From assembly GCF_003595195.1 (NCBI RefSeq), contig NZ_CP032418.1, positions 384,501 to 448,500 on the forward strand: a stretch of DNA of 64,000 nucleotides, written 5' to 3'. Numbering within the stretch: the first letter of the stretch is position 1; every line of letters begins with the position of its first letter. Position numbers and translations under genes: made by a program. The notes beneath the pieces are model-generated. The model worked only from the letters and a program-made list of their open reading frames with translations. It was not told the DNA's origin and made no database searches. Shown here piece after piece: positions 8,301 to 27,207 of this stretch. The stretch is from Paenisporosarcina cavernae (GTDB lineage Bacteria > Bacillota > Bacilli > Bacillales_A > Planococcaceae).

Positions 8301-8304
8301 GTAA

Positions 8305-8706: not shown

Positions 8707-8721
8707 GGAGTTGAAGAGCAC

Positions 8722-9246: not shown

Positions 9247-9250
9247 CACT

Positions 9251-9279
9251 AAGAGTCACATTTAAGTGGCTCTTTTTTA
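9251..9279 (+). terminator. Rho-independent terminator after major tail gene
   Basis: AAGAGTCAC and GTGGCTCTT form a nine-pair stem with one G-T pair and a six-base loop, followed by T residues. It lies inside the morphogenesis operon and probably lets only part of transcription continue into the tail assembly genes. Confidence 0.8.
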
Positions 9280-9318
9280 TTTGATTATTAGTCTGAATTT
9301 CGGAGGAGGAAAAGGAAT

Positions 9319-9768: not shown

Positions 9769-9800
9769 ACTATGACCAACTTCTAATAGATGCCGCTCAA

Positions 9801-10085: not shown

Positions 10086-10108
10086 CTCGTTAGAAAGGAG
10101 TGAGTAGG

Positions 10109-12754: not shown

Positions 12755-12768
12755 GAAGTGGTGATTAG

Positions 12769-15700
12769 ATGCCAACAAACAATTTCAAAGTAGGGGAAAT
12801 GTTGAACAAACGTACTCCTAATTCTAAGACTTGGATGAATTTTGATGGTTCCTATACCACTGAAATTCATTCAGGTTTTGTTCATTTTGATGATGAAGAA
12901 GGAAATCTTCACAATATCAACACTGATTTATATGATGAAGCGGATTTTGATTTGATCGATGTGCCTGTTTCTAAGCATGCTAAGGGAAAATTCGATGAAG
13001 CTAAAAAATTAGCCAAAACTGCTAAGCAGAAGCAAGTAATGGACAGAGGACAGTTTGATTTTCAAGCACTCAAAGTGCCATTTGAAGCTAAAATACCAAA
13101 GAATTTCATGCGAGGGTATACTATTGGAAAAGGTGCAGACAAATTAACTTTCAAACCTGTTAAAGCTAGTCCATCAATGGGTTCGCTTTCTGAAAATGAT
13201 CGTTCAACAATTGTTTATCAAGATGTGTGGAATGATGCAGATGTTGAACTTAAAGTGACATCATCTGGAATTAAAGAAACTATCATCGTAAAAACTGATA
13301 AAGCACCAATAAATTTCTCATTCGAAGTGAAAGGATATTTATCCGAAGACTTAAAAAGTGAGAATGGTCAACTTAAGCTTGCACCTGCATGGTTGATAGA
13401 TGCGAACGGAATGGAACGAGATGTATCACAAACTTTAAGAACAGAAAGCAACGGGAAAGTATATCTTGATCTTGTTGCTGATTTAGTGGGACTTACTTTT
13501 CCTGTAGAAATTGACCCTACGGTTACGATTCAGCCAGGTACGGGAGGTAAAGATACTTACGTTGCCTCTTATTACTCTTCCACTAATTACGGTGGTGCGG
13601 ATACAATTTCAGCGGGCAGAATGGCAACGGCTGAAGTAGCAGCACTAATACGGTTTGATTTATCGGCTATTTCTTCAAATGTGCAAGTAAAAGATTCAAA
13701 ACTGACACTTGTTCAAGCAGGAAATGAATATCCGATACAAGTAGTATGTTATGAGGCAACCGCAACATGGGAAGAAAATATTGTTACTTACGCTAACAAA
13801 CCAACTTATAATATTTCGGAAAATTACGGAATTCAGTCCGGTTTAAATAACGGTGCGAAGGAATGGAACGTAACATCTTTAGTAAATTCATGGGTCGTTG
13901 GTTTAAAACAAAATCATGGTTTGTATTTAAGGGATGACGGTGGAACATACGGTTCAAATGATAGAGTTTATTATTATTCATCTGAATACACAGGAAATGT
14001 AGCAAATAGACCAAAACTATCTGTAACCTATAATCAACCACCAACCGCACCAACAGTTATTGCACCAAACGGGGGCGAAACGTGGAATAGTTCGCACACG
14101 GTGGAGTGGTTGGTTTCAGAAGATGAAAAATTGATTGAAATTGCTAAGAGTGCCACGTCTACGACAAATCCAACACCTACAACTTTTGGTCAGACTTATA
14201 TCGTAGAGAATACTGGAAGATTAAAAAGCGTTGCGATTAGGTCGGACATAGCAACTATAAGCATTACATTAGCAATCAAAACTGAAAATTCGGGGCTTCC
14301 CGGAGCTACGACATACGCAACAAAAACATTAACAAATTATACAGTTCCAAGTGATGGTTATATTGTTTTTTTACTTGATGAACCTTTGGATATATCGGCT
14401 GGTCAAAAATTGGCTTTTGAATTTAATGATGGCGGGCAGAATTCTTCATATTACATTTCCACTAGCAATCCATATTTAGGTGGAAATGTGTTTGCTGGTA
14501 CTAGTATTTCATCTACTTATGATTATGATATGAAAATCGTTGAACTAGCTTCGAATGACTTACAATATCAAATACAACTATCAACAGATGACGGAGTGAA
14601 TTGGTCTGATATAGTCGCATTAACGGCTGCAGGGGCAACACAGTTTGTACATGATTTTATTAATGCACCGCAAACTTCCACTGCCAAGATACGTATCCGT
14701 GCATTCGATGGCTCAGCATATGGACCGTGGGATGAATCAGATGGGGTATTTTCAATTATTCACAACGTGGCTCCTAGCGCACCAACTAATTTAACGCCAG
14801 TCACAACGAAAGATTGTGGAGAGATAATTCGGTTCGCATGGCAACATAACGATTCCAACGGAGATGCACAATCTAAATTCGATTTAGACTATCGTCTTCA
14901 GGGGTCTTCTACATGGAACACTGTCACGCTAAACTCAGTCAATCAATACTTTGATTTACCTGCTGGTACATTACCTAGAGGAACAATAGAATGGAGAGTT
15001 CGAACGTATGACCAAGCAGATTTAAGCGGTCCATATTCAGAACTTAAAACTTTCTTTGCTGGCGACAAACCTTCGAAGCCAACAACATTAAATCCTATCG
15101 ATGGTTCAATCGTTTCTGTATCAAATCCAACTGTTCAGTGGTCTAGTGTTGGACAAGTTGGGTACAACCTTAAAGTGTTAGATGCATCGGAAACTGAAAC
15201 TTTATGGGAAACCAATCAAACTTCCAATAATAAAGCACATACAATCGGTTACAGTCTAGAAAATGAAACTAATTACGTGATTCAACTCACAATTAAGAAT
15301 GTGGACGGCATTAATTCAGATGTTGAAAAATCATATATTCATGTTTCTTATACACCTCCTGCAATTCCGATAGTGGAAACACTTTCTGATGAAGTTAGAG
15401 GGTCGATTATTCTTAACATAACCAATCCTGAACCGACTGGGACTGAGCCATTAGTTATGTTAAATGAAGTTTATAGACGTTCTTTAAATAAAGATTGGAT
15501 ACGAATTTCATTTGATGTATTAACCGGTGCACCATTTACAGATTTCACACCTGCAAGTGGAAAAACATACGAATATTATGTTCGCTCTTGGGGATTGAAT
15601 GAAACATACCGTGATAGTCCAATATTTCAAGCATCAGTATCTTTTGAACACGCCCAGTTAGCCATTACTAGCGATTATTCGGAATGGGTGGAACTAGTCA

Positions 15701-16014
15701 ATAACAAAGATACTAATCGTCAAAAAACACGTGGCAGAACTCTTAATCAGTTTGTTGGACGTGCTTATCCTTTAGCAGATTTTAGCGATGAGCAAACGCA
15801 AAGTATTGAGCTATCTTACATCACACAAGATTATGCAGATGTTGAAAAATTTTATGCCATCGCTGACCGCCAAGAAACCATGCTTTATCGTGATCGAGAA
15901 GGAAGACGTGAATTCGTTACGATTGATGTAACAAGTGAGGTAGAGCAGTATCTTGGAGAAATATTTAATATTAGTTTTACAGTTGAAAAAGTTTGGTTTA
16001 AGGAGGACGTCTAA
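12769..16014 (+). CDS. Large tail protein with DNRLRE and fibronectin-like domains (distal tail/adhesin)
   Basis: A 1081-residue protein directly after the tape measure. Residues 1-255 resemble the N-terminal part of large cell-surface or wall-associated proteins (STIVYQDVWNDADVELKV). Residues 260-422 form a DNRLRE-type domain (DTYVASYYSSTNYGGADTIS to RPKLSVTYNQPP). Then come several fibronectin- or Ig-like modules opening with PSAPTNLTP or PSKPTTLNP. The last 110 residues (YSEWVELVNNKDTNRQKTRG onward) look like part of a distal tail protein. It probably combines the baseplate hub position with host-surface binding. The fusion of a DNRLRE module with a tail protein is unusual. Confidence 0.75.
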   Translation: MPTNNFKVGEMLNKRTPNSKTWMNFDGSYTTEIHSGFVHFDDEEGNLHNINTDLYDEADFDLIDVPVSKHAKGKFDEAKKLAKTAKQKQVMDRGQFDFQALKVPFEAKIPKNFMRGYTIGKGADKLTFKPVKASPSMGSLSENDRSTIVYQDVWNDADVELKVTSSGIKETIIVKTDKAPINFSFEVKGYLSEDLKSENGQLKLAPAWLIDANGMERDVSQTLRTESNGKVYLDLVADLVGLTFPVEIDPTVTIQPGTGGKDTYVASYYSSTNYGGADTISAGRMATAEVAALIRFDLSAISSNVQVKDSKLTLVQAGNEYPIQVVCYEATATWEENIVTYANKPTYNISENYGIQSGLNNGAKEWNVTSLVNSWVVGLKQNHGLYLRDDGGTYGSNDRVYYYSSEYTGNVANRPKLSVTYNQPPTAPTVIAPNGGETWNSSHTVEWLVSEDEKLIEIAKSATSTTNPTPTTFGQTYIVENTGRLKSVAIRSDIATISITLAIKTENSGLPGATTYATKTLTNYTVPSDGYIVFLLDEPLDISAGQKLAFEFNDGGQNSSYYISTSNPYLGGNVFAGTSISSTYDYDMKIVELASNDLQYQIQLSTDDGVNWSDIVALTAAGATQFVHDFINAPQTSTAKIRIRAFDGSAYGPWDESDGVFSIIHNVAPSAPTNLTPVTTKDCGEIIRFAWQHNDSNGDAQSKFDLDYRLQGSSTWNTVTLNSVNQYFDLPAGTLPRGTIEWRVRTYDQADLSGPYSELKTFFAGDKPSKPTTLNPIDGSIVSVSNPTVQWSSVGQVGYNLKVLDASETETLWETNQTSNNKAHTIGYSLENETNYVIQLTIKNVDGINSDVEKSYIHVSYTPPAIPIVETLSDEVRGSIILNITNPEPTGTEPLVMLNEVYRRSLNKDWIRISFDVLTGAPFTDFTPASGKTYEYYVRSWGLNETYRDSPIFQASVSFEHAQLAITSDYSEWVELVNNKDTNRQKTRGRTLNQFVGRAYPLADFSDEQTQSIELSYITQDYADVEKFYAIADRQETMLYRDREGRREFVTIDVTSEVEQYLGEIFNISFTVEKVWFKEDV

Positions 16015-17165
16015 TGCAGTCGTTTTCTCATCCTCTATATAGTAGAGAGGATTTACTTAATGTGATTCATGGTGTTCATGGAAGTCGTGCAATTTCATTT
16101 AGGTATGATTTATTGGACAAAAAGGATAACAAACTCAAAGAACTTTATTCAGTAATCGATGGTGAAGTAAGTATGTCTTCCTTAGCTCAAATTAAGCGGA
16201 CTGCTAAATTCACGATACAGGATCAAGGCGATATTGATTATTTATCAAATCGAATTCAACCATGGATCATATTTAAGATGCCTAAAATGATGAAAAGAAT
16301 TGATACCCAAACAGTGAATGTACCATCCCAAAACATCGAATTTCCCCTCGGTGTTTTTTTGTTGGGATCGCCTACAAGGAAGGAAGATAGCAACAGCGTT
16401 ATCCGACAAGTGGATGCTTACGATGGTCTACTTGTCTTAAGAGATGATAAGTTTGACTCGCGCTATTTCATAGCTGCAGGAACTAATTATAGAAACGCAG
16501 TAATAAGCATTTTAGAAAGTGCTGGAATTGATAAACATAATATTGAAGAAACAAATAACGTACTACCTACAGATCTGGAGTTTGAACCAGGTAAAGAAAA
16601 GCTATTTTCAATCAACGAACTATTAGGGGCTATTAACTTCACTCCCATACACGTTGATGTATACGGCTATTACACTAGCATTTATTATCGGAGTCCTTCG
16701 GTTCGTGCTGCTGAATACGTCTATGCAGATGATATAAAGAGTATTTTGTCTGCAGGTATGGAAGAAGAATTGAATTTAGTTGAAACACCAAACCGATGGG
16801 TTGTTACAGTTTCAAATCCCGAGCAAGAGCCTTTAATCAGTACCTATACCAATGACAATTCAAATAGTCCGACTAGTACTATAAATCGTGGGAGAAAAAT
16901 TACGGATTTCCGGCAAATTGAAAATATCGCTGATCAAAACTCCCTAAATGGTTATGTTCAACGTATTGCCTTTGAAGCATCGCAAGTATATGGCAAATTG
17001 AAATTTAGCACAGCAATAAATCCATTGCACGATTATGCAGATGTTTTGGAAATAATTTATTCTCCATTGGGAATTAAGGACAAGTATTCAGAAACATCAT
17101 GGACAATACCTTTAAGAGCAGGTGCGTTAATGTCTCATGAAGTTCGCAAGGTAGTTCAGATATAG
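16014..17165 (+). CDS. Phage tail/baseplate hub-like protein
   Basis: A 383-residue protein whose ATG overlaps the stop of the long tail protein by one base, so translation is coupled. It begins with HPLYSREDLLNVIHGVHGSR and contains FTIQDQGDIDYLSNRIQPW, a pattern seen in siphovirus tail hub proteins of the XkdQ/Tal kind. No protease or lysin domain is visible. Position after Dit-like and tape measure genes supports a baseplate role. The precise family is not clear to me. Confidence 0.65.
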   Translation: MQSFSHPLYSREDLLNVIHGVHGSRAISFRYDLLDKKDNKLKELYSVIDGEVSMSSLAQIKRTAKFTIQDQGDIDYLSNRIQPWIIFKMPKMMKRIDTQTVNVPSQNIEFPLGVFLLGSPTRKEDSNSVIRQVDAYDGLLVLRDDKFDSRYFIAAGTNYRNAVISILESAGIDKHNIEETNNVLPTDLEFEPGKEKLFSINELLGAINFTPIHVDVYGYYTSIYYRSPSVRAAEYVYADDIKSILSAGMEEELNLVETPNRWVVTVSNPEQEPLISTYTNDNSNSPTSTINRGRKITDFRQIENIADQNSLNGYVQRIAFEASQVYGKLKFSTAINPLHDYADVLEIIYSPLGIKDKYSETSWTIPLRAGALMSHEVRKVVQI

Positions 17166-17176
17166 GAGGTGAACTA

Positions 17177-17410
17177 ATGCCGATAATTAATCGTTCCACT
17201 TTTGCACAAAAAATAAATGCAAGTAAAGATTCATCAGCAATTAAATTCGCCAAAATTGAACCTGATTATACGGCCGGAAGACCAAGATTGATATTTGATG
17301 GAGAATTAATTCCCACCATAAAAAAATATCCTTTTTTAAGTAGCTATGCACCAAAAGCAAATGATAGGGTTATGATTATTTCGGGAGTAATTCAAGGGAA
17401 AATTGTTTAA
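17177..17410 (+). CDS. Small tail-module protein, unknown
   Basis: A 77-residue protein with a good ribosome binding site (GGAGGTGAACTA). It ends in a short beta-like segment (DRVMIISGVIQGKIV) that resembles a small OB or beta-barrel turn. It follows the baseplate gene by 11 bases. I do not recognise a family. Small proteins of this form are frequent next to tail genes and may be accessory baseplate parts. Confidence 0.6.
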   Translation: MPIINRSTFAQKINASKDSSAIKFAKIEPDYTAGRPRLIFDGELIPTIKKYPFLSSYAPKANDRVMIISGVIQGKIV

Positions 17411-17469
17411 TAAATATTAAAGGGTTCTTTTCTCTTTTGTCGAAATGTGTTTAAAAGAGGAGTGTATGT

Positions 17470-18012
17470 ATGAACGAAACTTTAACTTCAAGAGATTATT
17501 CTTATGAAATCCAAAGTCTAAAAGACTTAATCACAGTAATTCAATCAAATCTTAATTTTACTTTATCAATCTTCCTTGGAGTAATTAGCGTTGCAATCAC
17601 CATAGCGGGAGTAGCCTTGTTTCATCTTGCGAAGACATGGGTGCATAAACGTGTCGATACTGAAATAAAAACAATTGATGACAAAATTAAAGGGTTTTTG
17701 GCAGTGAATCCACCAATTCTTTGGGCGAGAGGGAGCGGTGTACTAATATCTTCTCAAGCCCTTGGTGAAGTAAGTACTGCGTATAAGCATGAGTATCAAG
17801 TTATAGGTTTAAAGGATTTTAGTAAAGAAGACATCATTTATATTGATGCCTATTATATTCATGGCGGTAAGAAAACAGCTATTGAAGATTCAAATGTCTC
17901 CTTAATGGAAAACGGAGTAAAAGTAAATGTTGTTGAAACTATTGGAACTCTTAGACCTAACTTTCAAGTCCATGTTTTCCTTTTATGGTCAAACCCGAGA
18001 TTAAAAAAATAA
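17470..18012 (+). CDS. Single-pass membrane protein in phage lysis region, unknown
   Basis: A 180-residue protein. One clear membrane segment (LSIFLGVISVAITIAGVALF, about residues 32-56) is followed by an alpha-helical linker and a soluble C-terminal domain of about 110 residues with many beta-strand-like stretches (ENGVKVNVVETIGTLRPNFQ). It lies between tail and holin genes. It could be a superinfection-exclusion or lysis accessory protein, but the sequence does not decide. A terminator follows at once. Confidence 0.6.
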   Translation: MNETLTSRDYSYEIQSLKDLITVIQSNLNFTLSIFLGVISVAITIAGVALFHLAKTWVHKRVDTEIKTIDDKIKGFLAVNPPILWARGSGVLISSQALGEVSTAYKHEYQVIGLKDFSKEDIIYIDAYYIHGGKKTAIEDSNVSLMENGVKVNVVETIGTLRPNFQVHVFLLWSNPRLKK

Positions 18013-18023
18013 TAGTATTATGG

Positions 18024-18048
18024 AGAACGTCCAAATGGTCGTTCTTTT
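18024..18048 (+). terminator. Rho-independent terminator before lysis genes
   Basis: AGAACG and CGTTCT pair, extended by an inner CCA/TGG stem, followed by five T residues. It separates the preceding membrane protein from the holin and amidase genes. Confidence 0.7.
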
Positions 18049-18073
18049 TGTTTTGCCAAGAAAGGGTGAGTTG

Positions 18074-18442
18074 ATGACAGAAGTACAAGTCGCAGAGAAA
18101 ATCGCGAGTTCAGAATACGTCTTTGCGATACTTTTTATTATTATGTTGTTTATCGCAGTCAGATGGTTTGCTGGACATTTAAAAGAAATGAAACAAGAAA
18201 ACCAGGAGCGTGAAAAAGAACTAAAGGATTTATATACCGAACATAAGGAAGAATCAAAAGAACGAGAGAAACTCTTGCTCCGCCACTTGGAAAACTCGAA
18301 TGAATCACAGGCAAAAACTGCTGAAGCGATAAAAAAGATGAGTGATAGTATGAAGTCCATTGAGCAACAGATGGATACAGGATTTAAAGAAGTATGGAGA
18401 GCATTTAAAGGAGGAAAACATAATGGCAACAGAAATGATTAA
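18074..18442 (+). CDS. BhlA/UviB-type holin-like protein
   Basis: A 122-residue protein with an N-terminal membrane segment (YVFAILFIIMLFIAVRWFAG) and a long charged coiled coil (QENQEREKELKDLYTEHKEE), the layout of BhlA/UviB bacteriocin-holin proteins. The start at 18074 has AAAGGGTGAG upstream. Another open start at 18020 would overlap the terminator hairpin. Overlaps the second holin by 20 bases. Confidence 0.82.
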   Translation: MTEVQVAEKIASSEYVFAILFIIMLFIAVRWFAGHLKEMKQENQEREKELKDLYTEHKEESKEREKLLLRHLENSNESQAKTAEAIKKMSDSMKSIEQQMDTGFKEVWRAFKGGKHNGNRND

Positions 18443-18704
18443 TGTAATATTGTTCGCAACAATTTTGGTACCGATCGTCTTAGCTTTAGTTCAATTATTG
18501 AAAATTACTTTTCCGCTGCACAAGAATTATATTCCGCTAATTGCATTATTGATAGGGATAATAATTGGAGCAGCAGCGTATCCATTCTCTGAACTTGAAA
18601 TAGTAACACGATTATGGGCTGGTGGATTCGCAGGACTGGCTTCCACAGGATTGTTTGAGTTAGGTAATTATCGTTCAGGGTTAACGAAGGCGAGTGATAA
18701 GTAA
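18423..18704 (+). CDS. Phage holin
   Basis: A 93-residue protein with two or three membrane segments (VILFATILVPIVLALVQLLK; IPLIALLIGIIIGAAAYPF; a third weaker glycine-rich stretch) and a short charged C-terminus, typical of small class II holins that open the membrane for the endolysin. ATG at 18423 with AAAGGAGG before it. Its stop overlaps the amidase start by one base. Confidence 0.85.
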   Translation: MATEMINVILFATILVPIVLALVQLLKITFPLHKNYIPLIALLIGIIIGAAAYPFSELEIVTRLWAGGFAGLASTGLFELGNYRSGLTKASDK

Positions 18705-19588
18705 TGGCATATGAAATCGAGAGACGTATTGTCAAAGCAATACCAAAAAACAGAGTAAAATCATACTCTTATATTCTTGCTCACGAATCAGGCAATGCAA
18801 AGAACACAGGTGAAGGATCACTTGAATCAGAAGTTAAATTCATGGCAAACAATTGGCGAAATGCCTTTACACATTTCTGGGTAGGTAATAAAGCGATTAT
18901 CCAGCTGGCAGAAGATGGCTATGTTGCATATGGAGCAGGCGGCTATCTTAATCCCCACTCACCAGCACAAGTAGAGTTAGCTCGTGTGGATACTCAAGAA
19001 GAGTTTGATGAATCCTATAAGCGATATATATGGTTACTCCGTCACCAGGCAGATAAATATGGCATTCCTAAAACGTTGGATAGTGATGACCGTAGAGGCG
19101 TTAAAACTCATTTATGGATATCGAAAAATTTAGGTGGTACTAATCATACAGATCCTTACGACTACCTTGCAAAATGGGGAATATCGAAAGAACAGTTTAA
19201 AAATGATGTTGAGAATGGAATTGACTTGAATTCGAAAGGAGCTGAATCAAGAGTGAATTACTTACAGTGTGGAGATAGCGGTGGAGAAGTAAAAGTCATG
19301 CAAGAATTATTAGTGGAAGCAGGATTAAAAATTTCAATTGATGGAAGTTATGGACCTGCAACTGAAAAAGCGGTTCGAGCATTCCAAACAACTAACAATT
19401 TATCTGTGGATGGTTATTACGGTCCCGTAACTAAAGCAAAGTTATTGGAAGTTCCGAAATCAAAGCCATCCAAAAAAGAATTGTACCGTTTAGTTACGGG
19501 GACATTTGGTAGCAAGGAAGCTGCTGAAAAGTCAGCAAATATACTGAAAAGGCAATTTGGCTGGACGGTTTATGTAAAAGAAAAATAA
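18704..19588 (+). CDS. Endolysin: N-acetylmuramoyl-L-alanine amidase with peptidoglycan-binding and SPOR-like domains
   Basis: A 294-residue endolysin. The N-terminal Amidase_2 domain spans residues about 15-165, with likely zinc ligands H27 (LAHESGN), H136 (KTHLWIS) and a third in NHTDPYDYL (H148 or D150). Residues 185-250 are a PG_binding_1 domain (NGYYGPVT-type repeat seen twice: IDGSYGPATEKAV and VDGYYGPVTKAKL). The last 37 residues look like a SPOR-type domain (LVTGTFGSKEAAEKSANILK). It cuts the bond between muramic acid and the peptide stem during lysis. It is the last gene of the late operon. Confidence 0.93.
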   Translation: MAYEIERRIVKAIPKNRVKSYSYILAHESGNAKNTGEGSLESEVKFMANNWRNAFTHFWVGNKAIIQLAEDGYVAYGAGGYLNPHSPAQVELARVDTQEEFDESYKRYIWLLRHQADKYGIPKTLDSDDRRGVKTHLWISKNLGGTNHTDPYDYLAKWGISKEQFKNDVENGIDLNSKGAESRVNYLQCGDSGGEVKVMQELLVEAGLKISIDGSYGPATEKAVRAFQTTNNLSVDGYYGPVTKAKLLEVPKSKPSKKELYRLVTGTFGSKEAAEKSANILKRQFGWTVYVKEK

Positions 19589-19597
19589 TTGTGTCTT

Positions 19598-19626
19598 AGC
19601 CTTGCTCAATGAGTAGGGCTTTTTTA
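19598..19626 (+). terminator. Rho-independent terminator ending phage late operon
   Basis: AGCCTTGCTC pairs with GAGTAGGGCT with two G-T pairs, followed by a T tract. It marks the end of structural and lysis genes. Cargo genes begin after it. Confidence 0.75.
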
Positions 19627-19645
19627 TTTTGTCTATTTTTGTCGA

Positions 19646-19678
19646 ATATTACATGAAAATGTCCGTCTGTAATATAAT
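19646..19678 (+). promoter_or_regulatory. Promoter with overlapping inverted repeat before the STAND gene
   Basis: A TATAAT -10 box lies at 19673-19678, with a weak TTACAT -35 at 19649-19654 and an 18-base spacer. An exact eight-base inverted repeat, ATATTACA (19646-19653) and TGTAATAT (19668-19675), with arms 14 bases apart, covers both boxes. This is a plausible repressor site and suggests the gene is expressed from the prophage independently of late transcription. Confidence 0.6.
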
Positions 19679-19705
19679 TGATGAAATAAAAATGGGGTGA
19701 ATTAA

Positions 19706-22315
19706 ATGAACAATTTAAATATTAATACAAGAATCTTAATGTTTTCTGTATGCACATCATTAGAATTCGATCTGAGAAAATTTATCTTAGAAAGTAATTT
19801 GGTTAAAAATATACCGGAACCTATTAAAAACAAAGCAAAAGAACGAAACAAAAAACTTAAGACCGAAGAGATAAATACAAATAATTTAGCTTTCCTAACT
19901 GAGTTAGACATGGGAGATTTAGTGGACATAATATCCAACAATATCTATGAATTTAAGTTAAACATTGAAAAGAAGAAATTGTTAGTAGATTATTTCACCA
20001 AAATAATTCCCATAAGAAATAGAGTCATGCATACCAGACCTTTAGAAATAGGAGATAGATCTATCTTAAACGAAGTAATAGAAACTGTGGACGAAAAACT
20101 ATTCTGGATTAATTGGAATGAAACTATTAAAACAAGAGAGAAAATTAGAACAAGTCCACATGAAATAATAAACCAGTCATATAAAAAAGTGATTGATTAT
20201 ACTAGTAATGTTTATCACAATCTCCCTATACCAGAATTTGATGATACTGGCTATATAGGTAGAAAGAATGAAATGAAAAATATTATCAATTTATTAAAAG
20301 ATAAAAAGAATCAAATCATTACAATAGTCGGAAACGGCGGAATTGGAAAAACGGCAACTGCAGTAAAAGCATTGTATGATTTAATAGATTTGGAAGATAA
20401 CCCTTTTGAAGCAATATTATGGGTGAGTCTTAAAACAAGAACCCTTTCTAACGGTGAATTTCAAAATATTAATAAGGCAATTATCGATATGAAAGGAATG
20501 TTTTCTAATTTAGAGAAATTAGTAATTAAAGAAGAAAATCTAGATAAACAAAATATTATAAATTTTATGAAAGAATTCAATACACTTTTGGTAGTAGACA
20601 ACCTTGAAACCATTAGTACTCCTGAAATTATGGGATTTCTAAAAGACATTCCTGAAAATTCCAAAGTGTTAATAACATCTCGACATGGAATAGGAGAACT
20701 CGAAAATAGAATCCAACTAGAAGGATTAGATATAAATGATGCACTGACTTATTTCAGAATTTTATCAAAACATTATGGATTAAAATTACACACCAGGTCA
20801 GACAATGATTTAAAAAGACTTATAGGGGAATTCCTTTATTCAAGTCCGTTGTCTATAAAGTGGTTTATATCTAGTATATATACCGGCCTAAGTGAATCTT
20901 CCATATTGGCAAATAAAGAAGATTTGATAGTGTTCTGTATGTCAAATGTAGTTAACAAACTGAATGATAATGAAAGAAAAATTCTTCAATTGCTTCTAGT
21001 GGAAGGGAAAAAATTAAGTTATGGAGAAATTGATTATTTCTTGCAATATCAGGAAGGAGAACTTGTAAAATATATTAATAATTTGGTTTCAACAAGTATG
21101 ATACAACTTATTAATGGAGAATATGAACTAAATCAAATGGCAAAAGATTATCTTTCTTTAAGCCATCCACCTAAAAATGATTTTATTAACAAGGTATTTA
21201 AACAAAGATCAAAGCTAAATACTATGATGCAAGAGATAAAAATAAAAAATGAAGTAGATCCATTTAATCCTAAATCCATTTATAAAAATTTAGAAAGTAG
21301 TAATAAAAAAATTGCTTCTTTTTATTTAATTGAAGCACTCGATTTTAGTTCCAAAAGACAATGGGAAATGTCCTTCGAAAAAATAAAAAAAGCCGCAAGT
21401 ATTGCACCTGATTATTTTGAGGTTTATAAAATTAAAGCATTTATAGCTGCAGAAAGCGGAGACTGGTATGAAGCCATAAATAGTTATCGAACTGCAATAG
21501 AGACTTGCCATAGTAATTTTGAAAAAGCTACTGTTTTGTATTTATTCAGCGTCTTTTATGTTGTTCGTATGGTAAACTACGACAACGCGAAAGACTTAAT
21601 TCTTAAAGCTAACGAATTATATCCAGAGAATAAAACATTGTTAATGGAAAAAGCAAGAGTTCTAACATATTTAGGAGAATTTAACGAAGCACAGGAGATA
21701 CTTGAATCTATAGTTATTGATGAGAGTTTCACACAAAAAGCATTAAATCTTTATACAACAAGAATAGCTGATTTATACCGTAGAATGGCGAGCAACTACG
21801 ATAATAGAGACAATTTGAAAAAATATGCTTTGTACAAACTAGCAATCGAGAGAATTGAAACACTAAGCGAAATTGACCCTATAACATATCAAACTCTACT
21901 AAAAGTATTAGTTGATTTATCATTTATACACCGAAATCCTGATGCCCTAAGTTTGTTACATGAGACTTTAATTAAACATTTTGATAATTTAGTTGGAGTT
22001 AAAAGTGCAAATATGAACAAATTAGTTAGGAGTATTGAGAACTTTAAACATGAAATTCCTTCGGATCTTTATGATTTAGTGAGAAAATTATCGAAAAATT
22101 ATCAACAGGAAGCAAAAACAATCAATAATCCTAATATTGGTCTAGTTGTAAGGGTAATTAACAATTTTGGATTCGTGCAAAATGCCATTGGTTCATATTA
22201 TTTTAATTTTAATCAATGCCTATATAATCCCGTTAGTGTTGGTGATCGTGTAAGTTTTAAACTTACTCAAAACGTGAAAGGACCCGTGGCAATAAAATTA
22301 AATTTAATTGACTAG
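19706..22315 (+). CDS. HEPN-STAND NTPase-TPR-cold-shock-domain protein, candidate antiphage defence
   Basis: An 869-residue protein. Residues 1-140 are an all-helical HEPN-like domain (Swt1 type) with the RNase motif R-N-x3-H at R104-H109. Residues 183-400 are a STAND/NB-ARC-like NTPase: Walker A G209-T216 (GNGGIGKT), Walker B LLVVD at D298, then VLITSRHG at 321-328. Residues 415-490 look like a winged helix. Residues 540-760 are TPR-like repeats. Residues 808-869 resemble a cold-shock/OB domain (NNFGFV, GDRVSF, KGPVAIKL). By analogy with Avs-type sensors, ligand binding would drive oligomerisation and RNA cleavage. The gene is visibly more AT-rich than the phage genes and sits in the cargo slot between lysin and attachment site. 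Domain calls come from motifs by eye; the defence role is inferred. Confidence 0.75.
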   Translation: MNNLNINTRILMFSVCTSLEFDLRKFILESNLVKNIPEPIKNKAKERNKKLKTEEINTNNLAFLTELDMGDLVDIISNNIYEFKLNIEKKKLLVDYFTKIIPIRNRVMHTRPLEIGDRSILNEVIETVDEKLFWINWNETIKTREKIRTSPHEIINQSYKKVIDYTSNVYHNLPIPEFDDTGYIGRKNEMKNIINLLKDKKNQIITIVGNGGIGKTATAVKALYDLIDLEDNPFEAILWVSLKTRTLSNGEFQNINKAIIDMKGMFSNLEKLVIKEENLDKQNIINFMKEFNTLLVVDNLETISTPEIMGFLKDIPENSKVLITSRHGIGELENRIQLEGLDINDALTYFRILSKHYGLKLHTRSDNDLKRLIGEFLYSSPLSIKWFISSIYTGLSESSILANKEDLIVFCMSNVVNKLNDNERKILQLLLVEGKKLSYGEIDYFLQYQEGELVKYINNLVSTSMIQLINGEYELNQMAKDYLSLSHPPKNDFINKVFKQRSKLNTMMQEIKIKNEVDPFNPKSIYKNLESSNKKIASFYLIEALDFSSKRQWEMSFEKIKKAASIAPDYFEVYKIKAFIAAESGDWYEAINSYRTAIETCHSNFEKATVLYLFSVFYVVRMVNYDNAKDLILKANELYPENKTLLMEKARVLTYLGEFNEAQEILESIVIDESFTQKALNLYTTRIADLYRRMASNYDNRDNLKKYALYKLAIERIETLSEIDPITYQTLLKVLVDLSFIHRNPDALSLLHETLIKHFDNLVGVKSANMNKLVRSIENFKHEIPSDLYDLVRKLSKNYQQEAKTINNPNIGLVVRVINNFGFVQNAIGSYYFNFNQCLYNPVSVGDRVSFKLTQNVKGPVAIKLNLID

Positions 22316-22361
22316 TATAATTCTCCAAATTATGTGGTAAAATAATATTAATTAAAAGTAT

Positions 22362-22393
22362 AAGATGCACCATTTGAGGTGCATCTTTTTTTG
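22362..22393 (+). terminator. Rho-independent terminator after STAND gene
   Basis: AAGATGCACC and GGTGCATCTT make a perfect ten-pair stem with a six-base loop, followed by a long T run. It isolates the STAND gene as a single-gene unit. Confidence 0.9.
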
Positions 22394-22423
22394 TTGCAAA
22401 AAGAACAAGTGTTCGCATATAAT
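22394..22423 (+). promoter_or_regulatory. LexA-controlled (SOS) promoter of the YolD cassette
   Basis: TTGCAA at 22394-22399 and TATAAT at 22418-22423 are 18 bases apart. Inside the spacer, AGAACAAGTGTTCG (22402-22415) matches the Gram-positive LexA box GAAC-N4-GTTC. LexA bound here would block RNA polymerase, so the two genes downstream should be induced by DNA damage. Confidence 0.8.
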
Positions 22424-22441
22424 TAGCAAAAAGGAGCGAAC

Positions 22442-22666
22442 ATGATGCGAGAACAAATTCGAAAATGTATGCAGCTGAATCAGATTGTTGAAATGATCTA
22501 CATGGATAAACATGGCCAACTGTCCAAACGTCGCGTGAAAGTAATAAAGATGAACTCCACATCGTTCCAGTCTTTCTGTATGACGAAGAACGCTAAGCGT
22601 ACATTTATTATCGATAATGTTCTCGCAAACGCTCCTGTCGTGAAAAGGGAACGAGTAGTGATATGA
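22442..22666 (+). CDS. Small basic protein upstream of YolD, WYL-like beta fold
   Basis: A 74-residue protein starting two bases after GGAGCGAAC. The pattern of short strands (IVEMIYMDKHGQLSKRRVKV, then SFQSFCMTKNAKRTFIID) resembles the small SH3-like barrel of WYL domains, which bind ligands or nucleic acid in transcription factors. There is no helix-turn-helix. It overlaps the YolD gene by four bases and shares the SOS promoter. Short genes of this kind commonly precede yolD in Bacillales. The function is unknown. Confidence 0.7.
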   Translation: MMREQIRKCMQLNQIVEMIYMDKHGQLSKRRVKVIKMNSTSFQSFCMTKNAKRTFIIDNVLANAPVVKRERVVI

Positions 22667-23022
22667 GGAAGATTAATCGAGCTATGCAGCTTCAAGGTGA
22701 TATTAAAGACCGCGGTAATATCAAATGGACTTCGTTATTTCTGCCGGAACATGTGAAAGCTATGCGTGAATGGCAAGAGGACATAGGGAAAGTAGATAAA
22801 CCTTTACTAGATGAATTCGACCTGCAGGTACTTCAGGAAGAATTGGAGATCGCAATCCAGACAGCAAATGAAGTTCGTATTAAAGAATGGAAAGACGGTA
22901 AATTTGTTTATCATAGAGGAATCATAACTCGAGCAAATAGTCAGAAACTAACTTACGAAGATCCTTTCGGGAAGCACGATATTTACGCGACAAATTTAAT
23001 TGAAATCATGTCATTGTATTAA
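22663..23022 (+). CDS. YolD-like family protein
   Basis: A 119-residue protein with the YolD signature DRGNIKWTSLFLPEHVKAM near the start and a WYL-like C-terminal part (GIITRANSQKLTYEDPFGKH). YolD proteins are usually encoded with Y-family polymerases of the UvrX/YqjW type in plasmids and prophages, under LexA. Here no polymerase gene is present in the window, so the pair stands alone. Its role may be as a polymerase accessory acting with a host enzyme, which is an inference. Confidence 0.85.
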   Translation: MRKINRAMQLQGDIKDRGNIKWTSLFLPEHVKAMREWQEDIGKVDKPLLDEFDLQVLQEELEIAIQTANEVRIKEWKDGKFVYHRGIITRANSQKLTYEDPFGKHDIYATNLIEIMSLY

Positions 23023-23054
23023 GAATAGACCTCCTTAAATGGAGATCTATTCTT
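23021..23054. terminator. Hairpin between convergent genes
   Basis: AAGAATAGA and TCTATTCTT pair, with an inner CCTCC/GGAG stem, between the converging ends of the YolD gene and the minus-strand membrane protein. It overlaps the end of the latter. There is no clear T tract on either side, so its terminator role is uncertain. Confidence 0.5.
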
Positions 23055-23697
23055 GTACAACTACAAAACTTTTATTTAATTGTTCTATGTTCTCGGCTGC
23101 AGAAAGCATATGAGTTTCAGAAGTCGATAAAATTGATTCTAATTCATCCATTTCAGCAGGGGAAAAGTCTCCTTTATTTAATACTGTTTGAATGTGATTT
23201 ACTGCGGCACCTCTAATCTTGGTAGCAGTTGAAAAGTTGGTTTTGAATTTATCAAATTGTTTCTTGTTGTAGCCAGTTAACTTTCCGGCGGATATTTCGT
23301 GTATTTGATTTTCCAGATCCTCGTAACTAACTTCTAGCAATATCATTCTTCCGTATGCTGTTGAAATGTTCGTAGTTGTTCCTATACCATTTAAAGTTGA
23401 TTTAAATTCTTCTTCCCATAATCTATCAAACTCTTTAACGACTTTGTCCATTTGTGGTTTAACATCATTAATATAAGATTCTTTTTCTACTGAATAAACT
23501 TCACTCTTTTCTTCTGTAACAAACGCCATTCCTAACCCTATAAATGAAACTATAAAAACATATAAAGATATCCCTGCTCGTTGCAATTTTTGCTTCGCTA
23601 ATTGTTTATCTGTTTTAATAAGTCTAAAATATCTATACATATAGACTAGAACTAATACAAATGAAACTGACGAAAGTAGTAATAAAAAATTATCCAT
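23047..23697 (-). CDS. Membrane-anchored protein with long helical domain, unknown
   Basis: A 216-residue protein on the strand opposite to the rest of the prophage. Two N-terminal membrane segments (FLLLLSSVSFVLVLVYMYRY; AGISLYVFIVSFIGLGMAFV) are followed by about 160 mostly helical, charged residues. The start follows a GGGGGGA ribosome binding site. Many such proteins in Bacillales prophages are of unknown function. A membrane plus helical-sensor layout would fit superinfection exclusion, but nothing in the sequence proves this. Confidence 0.65.
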   Translation of the reverse strand: MDNFLLLLSSVSFVLVLVYMYRYFRLIKTDKQLAKQKLQRAGISLYVFIVSFIGLGMAFVTEEKSEVYSVEKESYINDVKPQMDKVVKEFDRLWEEEFKSTLNGIGTTTNISTAYGRMILLEVSYEDLENQIHEISAGKLTGYNKKQFDKFKTNFSTATKIRGAAVNHIQTVLNKGDFSPAEMDELESILSTSETHMLSAAENIEQLNKSFVVVQE

Positions 23698-23891
23698 AAT
23701 CCCCCCCTAGTATCCTTTTACCTACATTATCAAAAATAAATATTTTAATATAGTTCAATCATTCGACACTTTTCGACAATGATTATTTAATAACACCCAC
23801 AATACACTTATGCGCCCTCCTCTAGCATCATGAGATTAGTGCAGTGAAAAGTGTGAAGCTTAAATATGATAAACAATTTGATAAGCACGAT

Positions 23892-23919
23892 ATATATCAT
23901 AAAAATATAATTGATATAT
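23892..23919. promoter_or_regulatory. Inverted repeat, possible operator
   Basis: ATATATCA (23892-23899) and TGATATAT (23912-23919) form an exact eight-base inverted repeat with a 12-base gap, in the 282-base space between two divergent genes. It could be an operator. The surrounding sequence is very AT-rich, so chance is possible. Confidence 0.35.
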
Positions 23920-23979
23920 GTTTCTTAAATAGAGGAAATCAAATTTTCGTGTCGAATAGAAATATTCGGGAGAGTGAGA

Positions 23980-24198
23980 ATGAAGTTGAAGAAGTATAGT
24001 GTTTATATAAAGTATGAAGATGATAGAGTACAGGAATTTGATACTGATATAGATGTCAGAACACTCAAAGTGCTGCCATTGAGTAGCCCGCGATTAATTA
24101 TTATGGAAGACTTGAACTTTATAGATGTTGGGAGAATTAAGGAATTTAAACTTACAGAAAATGAATTAGTCACAACATACAAAAGCCCCTCCATTTAG
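23980..24198 (+). CDS. Small phage cargo protein, unknown
   Basis: A 72-residue protein. Start at the ATG at 23980; a GTG two codons upstream is possible. Mostly short beta-like stretches, no membrane segment, no recognisable motif. The terminator stem begins within its last codons. It is divergent from the minus-strand membrane protein. I do not recognise it. Confidence 0.55.
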   Translation: MKLKKYSVYIKYEDDRVQEFDTDIDVRTLKVLPLSSPRLIIMEDLNFIDVGRIKEFKLTENELVTTYKSPSI

Positions 24199-24213
24199 GA
24201 AGGGCTTATTTTT
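24183..24213 (+). terminator. Rho-independent terminator
   Basis: AAGCCC and GGGCTT, extended by TCC/GGA inside, followed by a T-rich tract. It overlaps the last codons of the small gene upstream. Confidence 0.8.
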
Positions 24214-24309
24214 AATTAGAGAAACTAAATTTTTAGCTATTACCAAATATAGGTAGACTATATTCTTCCGAAAGTTTAGAATTTAACTAATACTTTTAGG
24301 AGGGCTCAA

Positions 24310-26007
24310 ATGAAGAAAATATTACTTTCTCTCGTTACTTTTGTCTTATTTTTCTCGTTTACAAGTTTTAAGAATGTGGATGCTGCAAGTTACTCTGATG
24401 TAACTCCGAGTCATAGATTTTATGAAGATATCATGCTTCTTTTAGACAGAGGAATTGTAAGCGATAGTCAGCGATATGGAATAGATAAACCTATAACGCG
24501 CGAAGAAGTAGCGATAATGGTTTCAAAAGCAGTTGGATTAAAAGGCGGAAATGCTACTACAGGCTTTCCAGATGTTCCATCAAATTTAAGTTCTTCGGGG
24601 TACATAAAATCTGCCGTCGATGCAGGAATAATTGCTGGGTATACCGATGGAACATTTAAGCCAAAGGAAATAGTAAACAGAGGGCAAATGGCAATCTTTG
24701 TTGCACGTGCTTTTCATCTTACAAACCAAAAAGAAGTGAAATTTAAAGATGTCTCTTCAAACATGTTTGCATATACTGCTATCCGTCAAATCTTAGCGGC
24801 AAATATTACAACTGGTTTTCCAGACAATACTTTTAAACCAAATGATAAATTGACAAAGGGTCAAATTTCCGCATTTTTAGCCAGAGCAATTCGAAATGCT
24901 CAAGCTTCCATTGGAAACGCGAAAGTTCATTTCATAGATGTCGGTCAAGGAGATTCTATTTTAATTCAATCGGCAAGTGGAAAAACAATGCTGATTGATG
25001 GCGGCCCAAAATCAGCAGGAACTAAGGTGGTTAGTTACCTTAAATCTAAAGGCGTTACTAAACTAGACTATGTGGTTGCAACTCATCCAGACGCGGATCA
25101 CATTGGCGGATTGATTTCTGTGTTGAATTCTATCTCCATCGGCACATTTTTAGATTCTGGAAAATCACATACTACTGATACGTACTTAGAAATGCTTCAA
25201 TTAATTGATTCGAAAAATATTAAGTACGAAATTCCAGTGGAAAAAGAAGTTATCAATTTAGACGATAATTTCAAGTTTACAGTTCTGAATGCTGGAAAAG
25301 AATCTGATGATAACAATGAAGCATCTATCGTTTTGAAAGGTGTTTTCGGAACACAATCATTTTTATTTATGGCGGATGCTGATAAAAATACTGAGTTAGA
25401 TATTATGAGTAAGTATAATGTTTCAGCTAATGTGCTAAAAGCTGGTCACCATGGTTCCGATACTTCTTCTGGACTATCATTCTTACAAGCAGTAAAACCT
25501 CAAACGACTATTTTATCATATGGAAAGGATAACTCGTATGGACATCCAATGGCATCCGTCCTGGCAAATTTAAAATTATTAAATACTAGGGTTTATAACA
25601 CAGTTGATAGTTGCAATGTCGTTGTTGATACAGATGGGAAAACACATTCAGTTTCCACTAGCTGTACTGGATCAACATCTCCACAAACACCAGAACCTGC
25701 ACCTGTTAATAACAACTTAAGCATCACAAGCAAAGATTTGTCTACTGAGATTTTAGCTATCAAAAATACTAGCACAGCAACAATTAATTTAAGTGGTTGG
25801 AAATTAGTATCCGTGCAAGGTAATCAAATATATGAATTTCCAAATGTAAATTTATTAGCTGGTAAAACAATTTATGTAACAAGTGGGCCAAACGCTAAAT
25901 CAGGTAATGAATACTTAAAATGGACTACGGCTAACATTTGGCTAAATAGCGGAGATCCAGCAAAACTTATCAATCCTCAGGGAGCTGTAATAAGTGAATT
26001 CAAATAA
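24310..26007 (+). CDS. Secreted SLH-metallo-beta-lactamase (ComEC-like)-lamin-tail protein
   Basis: A 565-residue secreted protein. Signal peptide residues 1-26 (cut near VDA-AS). Three SLH domains (27-195) would tether it to the wall. Residues 205-445 are a metallo-beta-lactamase fold like the extracellular ComEC/Rec2 domain: FIDVGQGDSILI, metal motif H259-P-D261-A-D263-H264, GHHGSD at 379-384, and YGHP with H412. A PEPAP linker leads to a lamin-tail domain (468-565: KNTSTATINLSGWKLVS), often found with extracellular nucleases. It is likely a cell-surface phosphodiesterase or nuclease. It is phage cargo, or a chromosomal gene captured at the attachment site. Confidence 0.88.
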   Translation: MKKILLSLVTFVLFFSFTSFKNVDAASYSDVTPSHRFYEDIMLLLDRGIVSDSQRYGIDKPITREEVAIMVSKAVGLKGGNATTGFPDVPSNLSSSGYIKSAVDAGIIAGYTDGTFKPKEIVNRGQMAIFVARAFHLTNQKEVKFKDVSSNMFAYTAIRQILAANITTGFPDNTFKPNDKLTKGQISAFLARAIRNAQASIGNAKVHFIDVGQGDSILIQSASGKTMLIDGGPKSAGTKVVSYLKSKGVTKLDYVVATHPDADHIGGLISVLNSISIGTFLDSGKSHTTDTYLEMLQLIDSKNIKYEIPVEKEVINLDDNFKFTVLNAGKESDDNNEASIVLKGVFGTQSFLFMADADKNTELDIMSKYNVSANVLKAGHHGSDTSSGLSFLQAVKPQTTILSYGKDNSYGHPMASVLANLKLLNTRVYNTVDSCNVVVDTDGKTHSVSTSCTGSTSPQTPEPAPVNNNLSITSKDLSTEILAIKNTSTATINLSGWKLVSVQGNQIYEFPNVNLLAGKTIYVTSGPNAKSGNEYLKWTTANIWLNSGDPAKLINPQGAVISEFK

Positions 26008-26239
26008 ATACACGTTGGATCGTTTTGAAGACGGAAAGGCTGTTTTTTTATCTAAAGAAGATGAGAGTAAACAAGTATTACTTGATGATAAAATTGTGAG
26101 CGACCTATCCGAGGGGGACATTGTTAAATTACATGTTGATCCTGAAGGCAAATGGGCAGTCCAATGTAAGTTAGAGGATGAAACTGCTGAACGTAAAAAA
26201 GAAGTGAACGACCTTATAGAAAAATTAAAGAATAAGTAA
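25994..26239 (+). CDS. DUF3006 domain protein
   Basis: An 81-residue protein with the DUF3006 pattern: YTLDRFEDGKAVFLSKED, then a beta-rich middle (VKLHVDPEGKWAV) and a short helical end. Starts on GTG and overlaps the metallo-beta-lactamase gene by 14 bases. DUF3006 genes commonly follow ComEC-like metallo-beta-lactamase genes in Firmicutes, so the two probably act together. The biochemical role is not known. Confidence 0.85.
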   Translation: MNSNKYTLDRFEDGKAVFLSKEDESKQVLLDDKIVSDLSEGDIVKLHVDPEGKWAVQCKLEDETAERKKEVNDLIEKLKNK

Positions 26240-26241
26240 TT

Positions 26242-26279
26242 AAAATCCCTCCAAATTCGTTCGGAGGGATTTTGTTTTT
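26242..26279 (+). terminator. Rho-independent terminator
   Basis: AAAATCCCTCC and GGAGGGATTTT make a perfect 11-pair stem with a ten-base loop and a T-rich tail. It ends the metallo-beta-lactamase/DUF3006 pair. Confidence 0.9.
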
Positions 26280-26290
26280 GCTCGAATTGT

Positions 26291-26310
26291 AGTGACCAAA
26301 AAGTGACCAA
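26291..26310 (+). repeat. Direct repeat near right attachment site
   Basis: AGTGACCAA occurs at 26291-26299 and again at 26302-26310. Short direct repeats beside an attachment site are often integrase arm-binding sites. The segment 26280-26435 between terminator and tRNA fragment is otherwise AT-rich and gene-free. Confidence 0.4.
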
Positions 26311-26435
26311 CTAATGATAGTTGAATAAAAAACAAGTACATTAATGATAAAACGAGACAACTAAAAAACCTAAGGATATAGATAAATATTGATGTTGATT
26401 AACATATAGAAATAGTGATAGTTTAATCTATAACC

Positions 26436-26477
26436 CTGGCAGTGTGAAGGTCGTCGGTTCGAACCCGATAGTCTCCA
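26436..26477 (+). other. Right attachment site (attR): 3' half of a tRNA, tRNA-Ala(GGC)-like
   Basis: The sequence reads as anticodon loop CTGGCAG, stem arm TGTGA, variable loop AGGTC, a complete T arm (GTCGG, TTCGAAC, CCGAT), acceptor arm AGTCTCC and discriminator A. The 5' half is missing: bases upstream do not pair with TGTGA. This is what remains when a phage integrates into a tRNA 3' end. The full tRNA should be restored at the left junction outside the window. The CTGGCAG loop fits anticodon GGC (Ala). The CCA end is not encoded. Bases 26478-26668 beyond it hold no gene. Confidence 0.8.
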
Positions 26478-26668
26478 TCATAGTTTATTGCAATAGGTAG
26501 ATTTAAGTCCCATAGACAATAAAGCCTCTACTTCTCTCTAGTATATTGTTTGAGCGTCTAAACTGGTTTCTTATAAGGTACCTTGTATCTTCACAACGTA
26601 TTCACTTAGTACTCCTTCTGTATATACAGCATGATTTTCTCATAGGTTAAGGCAAAGGAGGAATGCGT

Positions 26669-27145: not shown

Positions 27146-27150
27146 ACGAC

Positions 27151-27185
27151 AAAAAGCTTCTCGCACTTAGCGAAAAGCTTTTTTT
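27151..27185 (+). terminator. Rho-independent terminator
   Basis: AAAGCTT and AAGCTTT arms with an inner CGC/GCG stem and a T run. The stem is A-rich on its other side too, so it may serve the convergent degV gene as well. Confidence 0.8.
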
Positions 27186-27207
27186 AGTTATTAGGTGATT
27201 AATCGTT

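Follow-up and report, generated by a model that had tools for sequence, protein, structure and literature searches.

An intact 869-aa open reading frame (ORF) in the window, the 64,000-nt stretch of Paenisporosarcina cavernae DNA that was analyzed, encodes a protein in which a HEPN domain is followed by an NB-ARC/STAND NTPase, TPR-like repeats, and a cold-shock domain (CSD). Based on its predicted domains and genomic position, we propose, with a probability of roughly 0.7, that this protein is a single-gene, prophage-carried anti-phage defense of the HEPN–STAND type that would act by abortive infection. We favor a defense role because the slot that holds the gene is exchangeable and is occupied by a known defense system elsewhere in the same genome, and because the same fusion is predicted for conflict roles in the sections of Anantharaman et al. 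(2013; PMC3710099) that treat it. The features of the protein are as follows.

19706–22315, plus strand: the whole HEPN–NB-ARC/STAND–TPR-like–CSD ORF, 869 aa, intact (ORF calling and domain search)
19706–20200, plus strand: HEPN domain of Abi2/Swt1 type, about aa 1–165 (hhalign against HEPN_Swt1 and Abi_2)
20015–20032, plus strand: Rx4H motif, R104–H109
20264–20686, plus strand: NB-ARC/STAND NTPase domain, aa 187–327 (Pfam NB-ARC, E 6.6e-13; 41 of 41 members of alignment A3)
20330–20353, plus strand: Walker A, aa 209–216 (G209–T216)
20597–20599, plus strand: Walker B aspartate, D298
21293–21805, plus strand: TPR-like helical repeats, about aa 530–700 (Pfam TPR_19 in 34 of 41 members; profile matches to solved TPR proteins)
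22127–22312, plus strand: C-terminal CSD, aa 808–869 (Pfam and family profile)

The ORF, the four domains, and the positions of R104/H109, Walker A, and D298 agree with the initial annotation; homology confirms the domain assignments, and the motif residues are conserved across relatives. Because the motifs are kept across relatives at 20–50% identity, we consider them to be above chance. Conservation was read from a 76-row alignment, before which L003 (a minus-strand copy), L008 (close to L007), and L017 (the same match as L002) were left out; two fragments (L081 and L083) and the unaligned L004, L005, and L084–L087 also lie outside it.

Profile comparisons using hhalign place the N-terminus in register with HEPN_Swt1 (probability 95.4%, E 1.9e-8; alignment A7, 10 of 13 HEPN_Swt1 loci) and with Abi_2 (66%, E 5.7e-5; alignment A8, 12 of 18 Abi_2 loci). 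Five controls reached only 0.1–0.4%; two of the first three were single sequences, and two more of like alignment depth were added. These results support the assignment of the N-terminus, by sequence profiles, to a predicted HEPN fold of the Abi2/Swt1 family. In the single protein the Pfam HEPN_Swt1 match falls under the cut-off (E 0.0019), and the model matches 17 of the 41 members of alignment A3 at E 0.01 or better; the HEPN alignment profile retrieved no solved chain from the PDB even at E 10. The catalytic motif of HEPN domains, R-x4-6-H and often with a polar residue after the arginine, is present as R104-N105...H109, and its columns are filled in 72 of the 76 aligned rows, with R in all 72, N105 in 69, and H in 70. 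One of the two fetching patterns contains RN.VM, and conservation of the motif is therefore partly selected in its 16 matching rows; the other 54 of the 70 rows were examined separately, and in rows outside the pattern R is kept in 50/50 and H in 48/50.

The hallmarks of STAND NTPases of the NB-ARC class, namely Walker A, Walker B, the TSR motif, and a conserved proline, are all found: K215, T324, R326, and P381 are each kept in 76 of 76 aligned rows, and the aspartate at 298 in 75 of the 75 rows that have this column. The stretch between the TPR-like repeats and the CSD (aa 701–805) is the least conserved domain-sized part of the protein in each of the four comparison sets (32%, 51%, 29%, and 13%). 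The TPR part itself was considered as the least conserved region and rejected, as only 701–805 holds that position.

The Pfam CSD match at 819–866 of the single protein is weak and under the Pfam cut-off (E 0.0054). With E 0.01 as the limit, the same model finds 25 of the 41 members of A3, and the family profile matches solved cold-shock proteins over positions 803–867 (1g6p, E 5e-11). Aromatic residues of the RNP1/RNP2 type accompany these profile matches: F occupies column 823 in 61 of the 63 filled rows, all 61 filled rows have F or Y at column 832, and at column 834 the usual H is replaced by N in the 869-aa protein. Because 61 of the 72 family proteins whose C-terminus is not cut short carry one to three CSDs (L057, L068, L069, and L082, all cut short, are outside this count and the tree), we regard the CSD as a core part of the family rather than an oddity; none was found in 76 shuffled control proteins. 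Presence or absence of the CSD changes four times on the tree. Nine of the 11 uncut proteins that lack a CSD have the HEPN stretch with its full motif; of the other two, L079 keeps R and H, and the ORF of L059 is without the HEPN stretch. A split system, in which a separate CSD gene lies beside the CSD-less relatives, was rejected, since none is found at these 11 loci; among 56 control loci there is one extra CSD ORF (L013), by eye RNase R. Given that the HEPN motif is kept in most of these CSD-less proteins and no separate CSD gene accompanies them, the CSD is dispensable in their lineages.

The gene is part of a prophage of about 40.8 kb that is located at tRNA-Ala(GGC), and occupies a slot after the lysin gene. 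The features of this region are as follows.

18704–19588, plus strand: prophage endolysin with Amidase_2, PG-binding, and weak SPOR domains (Pfam; phrog_1110 endolysin, E 9e-63)
19545–19649, plus strand: left slot flank common to the sibling prophages (19596–19646, 88% to L101; 19545–19649, 79% to L102)
19598–19620, plus strand: terminator-like site in the left slot flank, downstream of the lysin gene (scan; aligned with both sibling prophages)
19673–19678, plus strand: -10-like TATAAT inside the cassette with no scoring -35 (read from the sequence; absent from the promoter scan list)
22362–22387, plus strand: terminator-like site downstream of the gene, with the right arm in the common right slot flank (scan)
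22377–23026, plus strand: right slot flank common to the sibling prophages (22377–23012, 91% to L101; 22377–23026, 84% to L102)
22442–22666, plus strand: 74-aa ORF in the right slot flank (ORF list)
22663–23022, plus strand: YolD ORF in the right slot flank (domain search)
23047–23697, minus strand: ORF with a membrane-bound look by eye
from 23974: second 74-aa ORF between the gene and attR
24310–26007: SLH/metallo-beta-lactamase/LTD ORF
25994–26239: DUF3006 ORF
26433–26478, plus strand: attR, a 46-bp copy of the 3' part of tRNA-Ala(GGC) (attL at G000:C1:370137-370182)

The same genome contains two sibling prophages that have both slot flanks in common with this one and differ in cargo, and the cargo of one sibling is a complete PD-Lambda-5 system (A, E 8.5e-282; B, E 3.3e-115). 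The slot argument comprises these three prophages of one genome, the third cargo being without assigned function. PD-Lambda-5 protected E. coli against phages in the experiments described in PMC9519451, and its presence in the same slot lends indirect support to the defense role that the initial annotation had claimed. The flanks give the cassette natural borders, within which lies one gene in 2.73 kb. The gene is AT-rich, as first read, with a GC content of 28.7% compared to 38.1% for window positions 1–19650; the corresponding values are 28.5% for the cassette, 28.6% for the PD-Lambda-5 genes, and 32.7% for the third cargo. A terminator behind the gene was likewise predicted correctly, at least as a terminator-like site. 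The promoter proposed for the gene is putative: the TATAAT hexamer is present, but the scan of 19621–19705 gave no promoter-like site (19 such sites were found in the scanned region, compared to 17.3 expected). The gene is not alone between the lysin gene and attR, as had been stated, since attR lies 4.1 kb beyond the gene end and the additional ORFs listed above lie between. An Rfam scan of 17000–28000 returned nothing at gathering scores, and a megablast search of window positions 1–19600 against phages gave no match.

The domain order, first thought to be undescribed, was already described in 2013, and the 869-aa protein is a further member of a known architecture. Anantharaman et al. (2013; PMC3710099) list fusions to STAND ATPases, TPR, and S1 within the Abi2/Swt1 HEPN family, note C-terminal cold-shock-like OB domains in some HEPN–STAND proteins, and predict computationally that HEPN–STAND–TPR(–OB) proteins are mostly active and conflict-related. 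Our protein has the same N-terminal HEPN domain, STAND NTPase, TPR repeats, and C-terminal OB domain (S1 or cold-shock-like in that work), and corresponds to these fusions in domain architecture; the portions of the paper that describe these fusions do not, however, give a prophage cargo position or the distribution of the CSD. The literature searched yielded no experimental test of this architecture. The PHROG family phrog_24039 matches over aa 7–704 (E 3e-118), but the match stops before the CSD and the family is without assigned function.

Avs, bNACHT, and Rst_TIR-NLR are STAND defense systems, and the PADLOC library includes Avs models. The 869-aa protein shares with these systems the logic of an effector, a STAND NTPase, and C-terminal repeats, but has a HEPN effector, an NB-ARC-type NTPase, and a CSD tail. 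Membership in Avs (AVAST) was rejected, as no Avs-named model is among the five PADLOC matches at E up to 1 (two PDC-M34B models, mad8, CSD_V, and PDC-M13A). Below E 0.001, PADLOC yields no named system but one candidate, PDC-M34B, which covers the HEPN part alone (aa 32–117, E 4e-8) and also matches 23 of the 41 members. A TIR–STAND–TPR layout is mentioned in a passage of PMC9122126. CoCoNuT type IV restriction systems, in the sections of PMC11090510 that describe them, also combine HEPN RNases with CSD-like OB folds and are predicted to target RNA, but they are multi-gene systems with a McrBC-like GTPase, whereas the cassette described here is one gene without McrB or McrC. Retron Se72 and type V CSD effectors resemble the protein weakly in the CSD (NCBIfam retron_eff_Se72, E 0.015; PADLOC CSD_V, E 0.027); unlike these, the one-gene cassette is without a reverse transcriptase and its CSD is fused to HEPN–STAND.

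For the proposed abortive infection, we hypothesize that the STAND module would keep the protein inactive at rest, that a phage-derived trigger would be met by the repeat or C-terminal part and lead to ATP-dependent oligomerization, and that the HEPN domains would thereby be brought together. Cleavage of host and/or phage RNA by the assembled HEPN RNase would then stop the cell before it releases phage, to the benefit of both the resident prophage and the population of lysogens. The probable ligand of the CSD is single-stranded RNA or ssDNA, whose binding would either contribute to the trigger or keep RNA close to the HEPN sites. The compact cassette and its slot, elsewhere filled by PD-Lambda-5, make this gene a convenient starting point for tests of the architecture predicted in 2013, and natural variants with zero, one, two, or three CSDs offer a direct test of whether the CSD is a sensor or a substrate binder.

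We tentatively consider that the CSD may hold or unwind RNA for the HEPN nuclease and that the TPR part and the stretch that follows it would detect a phage protein in the manner of Avs. The low conservation of 701–805 in all four sets is expected of a diversifying protein sensor, and the link of CSD-like OB folds and HEPN RNases to RNA targeting in the described CoCoNuTs (PMC11090510) fits this role; this reading is opposed by the conservation of the TPR part (530–700), which is not below that of the CSD except slightly in Bacillota (CSD and TPR, respectively, 56% vs 64% in Streptomyces/Kitasatospora, 41% vs 48% in the rhizobial group, and 42% vs 40% in Bacillota). It is somewhat unlikely that the CSD is instead the sensor, such that CSD-bound single-stranded phage RNA or ssDNA, together with the TPR arm, would trigger the STAND switch of a nucleic-acid-sensing bacterial NLR. 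STAND proteins usually carry the sensor at the C-terminus, where the CSD is found; its aromatics are conserved at RNP-like positions in one to three copies per protein, and a diversifying sensor could explain why its conservation falls below that of the TPR part in two of the three clades. However, the CSD is dispensable in the lineages of the 11 CSD-less proteins, with no separate gene to supply it. The broader proposal, that this is a widespread bacterial and archaeal NLR-like family in which one C-terminal CSD, sometimes two or three, senses phage ssRNA or ssDNA and switches on the HEPN RNase, and which serves here as a swappable prophage weapon, is unlikely as a whole; if true, the protein would be a STAND immune receptor sensing nucleic acid.

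Relatives of the protein are distributed over 13 bacterial phyla and Asgard archaea. Those in genome and viral contigs were found with an alignment query, as the single-protein query gave no match in genome contigs, viral contigs, or phage records; most of the relatives are from genome contigs (73 loci) or plasmids, two are from viral contigs, and four family queries against 50,697 phage records had no match. In their neighborhoods, for which ORFs were called with a crude ORF caller, the commonest Pfam family occurs in three of 150 scanned ORFs (of 259 near ORFs), and the sampled neighbors show no partner gene that recurs. Near ORFs include defense-type matches such as PtuA, SduA, and AbiEii, each in one, and far ORFs (126 of 126 scanned) include them too, for example type I specificity subunits in two; among the families listed, no defense-island enrichment is thus shown. 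When the post-lysin slot was sought in other genomes, upstream ORFs looked ordinary chromosomal by eye in eight of nine relatives' regions, and only L169 (G260) had the look of a prophage end.

These distributions bear on a further explanation, that the protein is a prophage regulatory or stress factor with no part in phage defense, controlling for instance superinfection or lysogeny through RNA. CSD proteins often work as RNA chaperones and the gene follows the lysin gene of a prophage, both as this explanation would have it, but we consider it improbable based on the predominance of relatives outside viral contigs and phage records and on the exchange of the slot with PD-Lambda-5. That the gene is decayed or inactive cargo is highly improbable: the related loci L003 and L005 are apparently truncated or interrupted, but the prophage copy is complete, retains every motif, and can be aligned along its full length with WP_341963577.1, a relative on a Planococcus maritimus plasmid that is 52% identical over query positions 1–867.

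The gene 3' to the prophage lysin gene is real and intact, and the residues singled out in the initial annotation lie in its 869-residue product where they were placed. The domain reading made there was likewise correct. In Pfam searches with the single protein, NB-ARC is matched at residues 187–327 (E = 6.6e-13), whereas HEPN_Swt1 (residues 23–114, E = 0.0019), the cold-shock domain (CSD; residues 819–866, E = 0.0054), and TPR models are matched below the curated Pfam cut-offs. In PHROGs, residues 7–704 match phrog_24039, of unknown function (E = 3e-118), and in PADLOC the HEPN part matches the candidate PDC-M34B (E = 4e-8) and the protein matches no named defence system. The suggestion that this domain order was undescribed does not hold, given that proteins joining HEPN, STAND, and TPR, some of them ending in an S1- or cold-shock-like OB domain, are already reported (Anantharaman et al. 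2013, PMC3710099). The HEPN-STAND-TPR-CSD protein is thus of a known kind, apparently without experimental study: none appears among the papers listed for the literature searched, which excludes most subscription papers. HEPN and CSD also occur together in CoCoNuTs, within a different framework, and the case has been made that RNA is the target of those systems (PMC11090510).

The features of the prophage and of two sibling prophage ends (L101 and L102) in the same genome (G000) are as follows.

G000:C1:384501-448500, the window
G000:C1 370137-370182, attL, 3' part of tRNA-Ala(GGC), beside tyrosine integrase and S24-type repressor genes
Window 846-17162, terminase, portal, head, tail, and tape-measure genes
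Window 19598-19620 and 22362-22387, terminator-like sites bracketing the HEPN-STAND gene
Window 19706-22315, + strand, HEPN-STAND ORF, 869 aa
Window 26433-26478, attR
Window 19596-19646 (88%) and 22377-23012 (91%), flanks shared with L101
Window 19545-19649 (79%) and 22377-23026 (84%), flanks shared with L102
L101:4789-7439 (G000:C1 ~1.757 Mb), PD-Lambda-5 A+B cassette
L102:4835-6136 (G000:C1 ~1.371 Mb), 433-aa protein without confident family, same slot

The positions of attL and attR therefore define a prophage of ~40.8 kb. Both flanks of the slot holding the HEPN-STAND gene are common to this prophage and to L101 and L102, which were called prophage from reading of their ORFs. The L101 slot, between lysin and YolD, holds a complete PD-Lambda-5 (A, E = 8.5e-282; B, E = 3.3e-115), an experimentally shown defence system that has been characterized as what seems to be a condensed prophage form of an RM+Abi system (PMC9519451). 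The L102 protein, a candidate defence gene, matches only PrsW-protease in Pfam (E = 0.0025), and its start recalls an Ntn hydrolase by eye. GC content is 28.5% in the HEPN-STAND cassette, 28.6% in the PD-Lambda-5 genes, 32.7% in the L102 cargo, and 38.1% in window 1-19650. Of the contextual evidence for a role in defence, this exchange of cargo with PD-Lambda-5 in a common slot is the strongest, but the comparison covers three prophages, all from a single genome.

The HEPN motif columns are present in 72 of 76 aligned family rows (R in 72, N in 69, H in 70). One of the patterns used to retrieve relatives included RN.VM, so the rows it does not match, 54 of the 70 retrieved, were examined separately; the motif columns are present in 50 of these (R in 50, N in 47, H in 48). 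In two relatives, L062 and L068, lysine replaces the histidine, and these are perhaps inactive or altered. In profile comparisons, the N-terminal family alignment (43 rows) aligns in register with HEPN_Swt1 proteins (10 rows; probability 95.4%, E = 1.9e-8) and Abi_2 proteins (12 rows; 66%, E = 5.7e-5) taken from genomes. Controls gave 0.2% (YolD alignment, 3 rows) and 0.1% for each of two single-sequence comparisons, one with the integrase and one with a protein encoded in the window; those of like depth, 12 rows each, gave 0.4% (the family's own TPR part) and 0.1% (the part after the NTPase core). Even with an E cut-off of 10, the same profile matched nothing in PDB, which counts against the HEPN assignment. 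NB-ARC is found in 41/41 members of another family alignment at E of 0.01 or better and TPR_19 in 34 of them; K215, T324, R326, and P381 are each kept in 76/76 rows, and D298 in all 75 having the column.

Pfam CSD is matched in 25 of the 41 members (best E = 3.6e-14), and a 52-row family profile matches, over its C-terminus, the solved cold-shock proteins 1g6p (E = 5e-11) and 8h1i (E = 1.2e-10). By a partly circular model built from 50 family C-termini, which matched 0/76 shuffled proteins, 61 of 72 proteins uncut at the C-terminus carry a CSD, the 869-residue protein included, with one copy in 52, two in 8, and three in 1. The tandem copies are C-terminal (L028, L029, L033, L045, L051, L053, L054, L056, and L063). 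The remaining 11 have no CSD, and at none of their loci did a stand-alone CSD gene turn up. On a quick, arbitrarily rooted tree (residues 1–560; 72 rows, 26 with unusual letter make-up; long branches L071 and L079 joining), CSD presence requires four changes, and losses are the simplest reading.

By homology to STAND receptors and HEPN RNases, a trigger would cause oligomerization of the protein, and the oligomer would cleave RNA through its HEPN domain, with abortive infection as the outcome.

Mean pairwise identity (%) by set (rows), in the order NBD, HEPN, CSD, TPR, residues 701–805
Bacillota (7): 55, 46, 42, 40, 32
Streptomyces/Kitasatospora (5): 88, 58, 56, 64, 51
Rhizobial group (5): 72, 49, 41, 48, 29
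All CSD rows (61): 41, 26, 25, 25, 13

Residues 701–805, directly before the CSD, are thus the most variable in all sets, a pattern that, from sequence, fits a diversifying sensor there. TPR and CSD identities show no consistent difference across the four sets. The CSD may itself be the sensor or may act as a substrate hand.

The gene family is rare by whole-genome searches, with matches in 5/261 genomes of the same family (at E 1e-8), 5/398 of the same class, and 1/299 of the same phylum (both at E 1e-12); in each count the genome holding the window is included, as are some incomplete matches. Two relatives from the same bacterial family appear degraded (L003 and L005), one matching only query 373–868 and the other with an in-match stop. 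With a five-sequence alignment as query, genome_contigs yielded 73 loci and viral_contigs 2, and the rows of the tree represent 13 phyla of bacteria and a single group of Asgard archaea. The Asgard relatives, L057 (cut short and left out of the tree) and L071 (a long branch), lie on Heimdall- and Lokiarchaeota MAG contigs, for which binning errors are possible. Near relatives, the commonest Pfam family was phage integrase, at 3 of the 150 ORFs sampled from 259, and therefore no recurrent partner was seen in that sample; PADLOC matches (E of 1e-8 or better) occurred among both these 150 and all 126 far ORFs, so that enrichment nearby was not shown. By tblastn, 17 plasmid records matched, among them one full-length relative in Planococcus maritimus (52% identity) and three in Rhizobium (~28%). 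One Rhizobium relative (L007:5824-13824), on a plasmid typed as conjugative, lies one gene from a type I restriction-modification operon. Near attR, window 24310-26239 encodes a protein with SLH, metallo-beta-lactamase, and LTD domains in that order and, after it, DUF3006, and the Planococcus plasmid relative is likewise close to a ComEC/Rec2-like gene with DUF3006 (L006:13233-14302).
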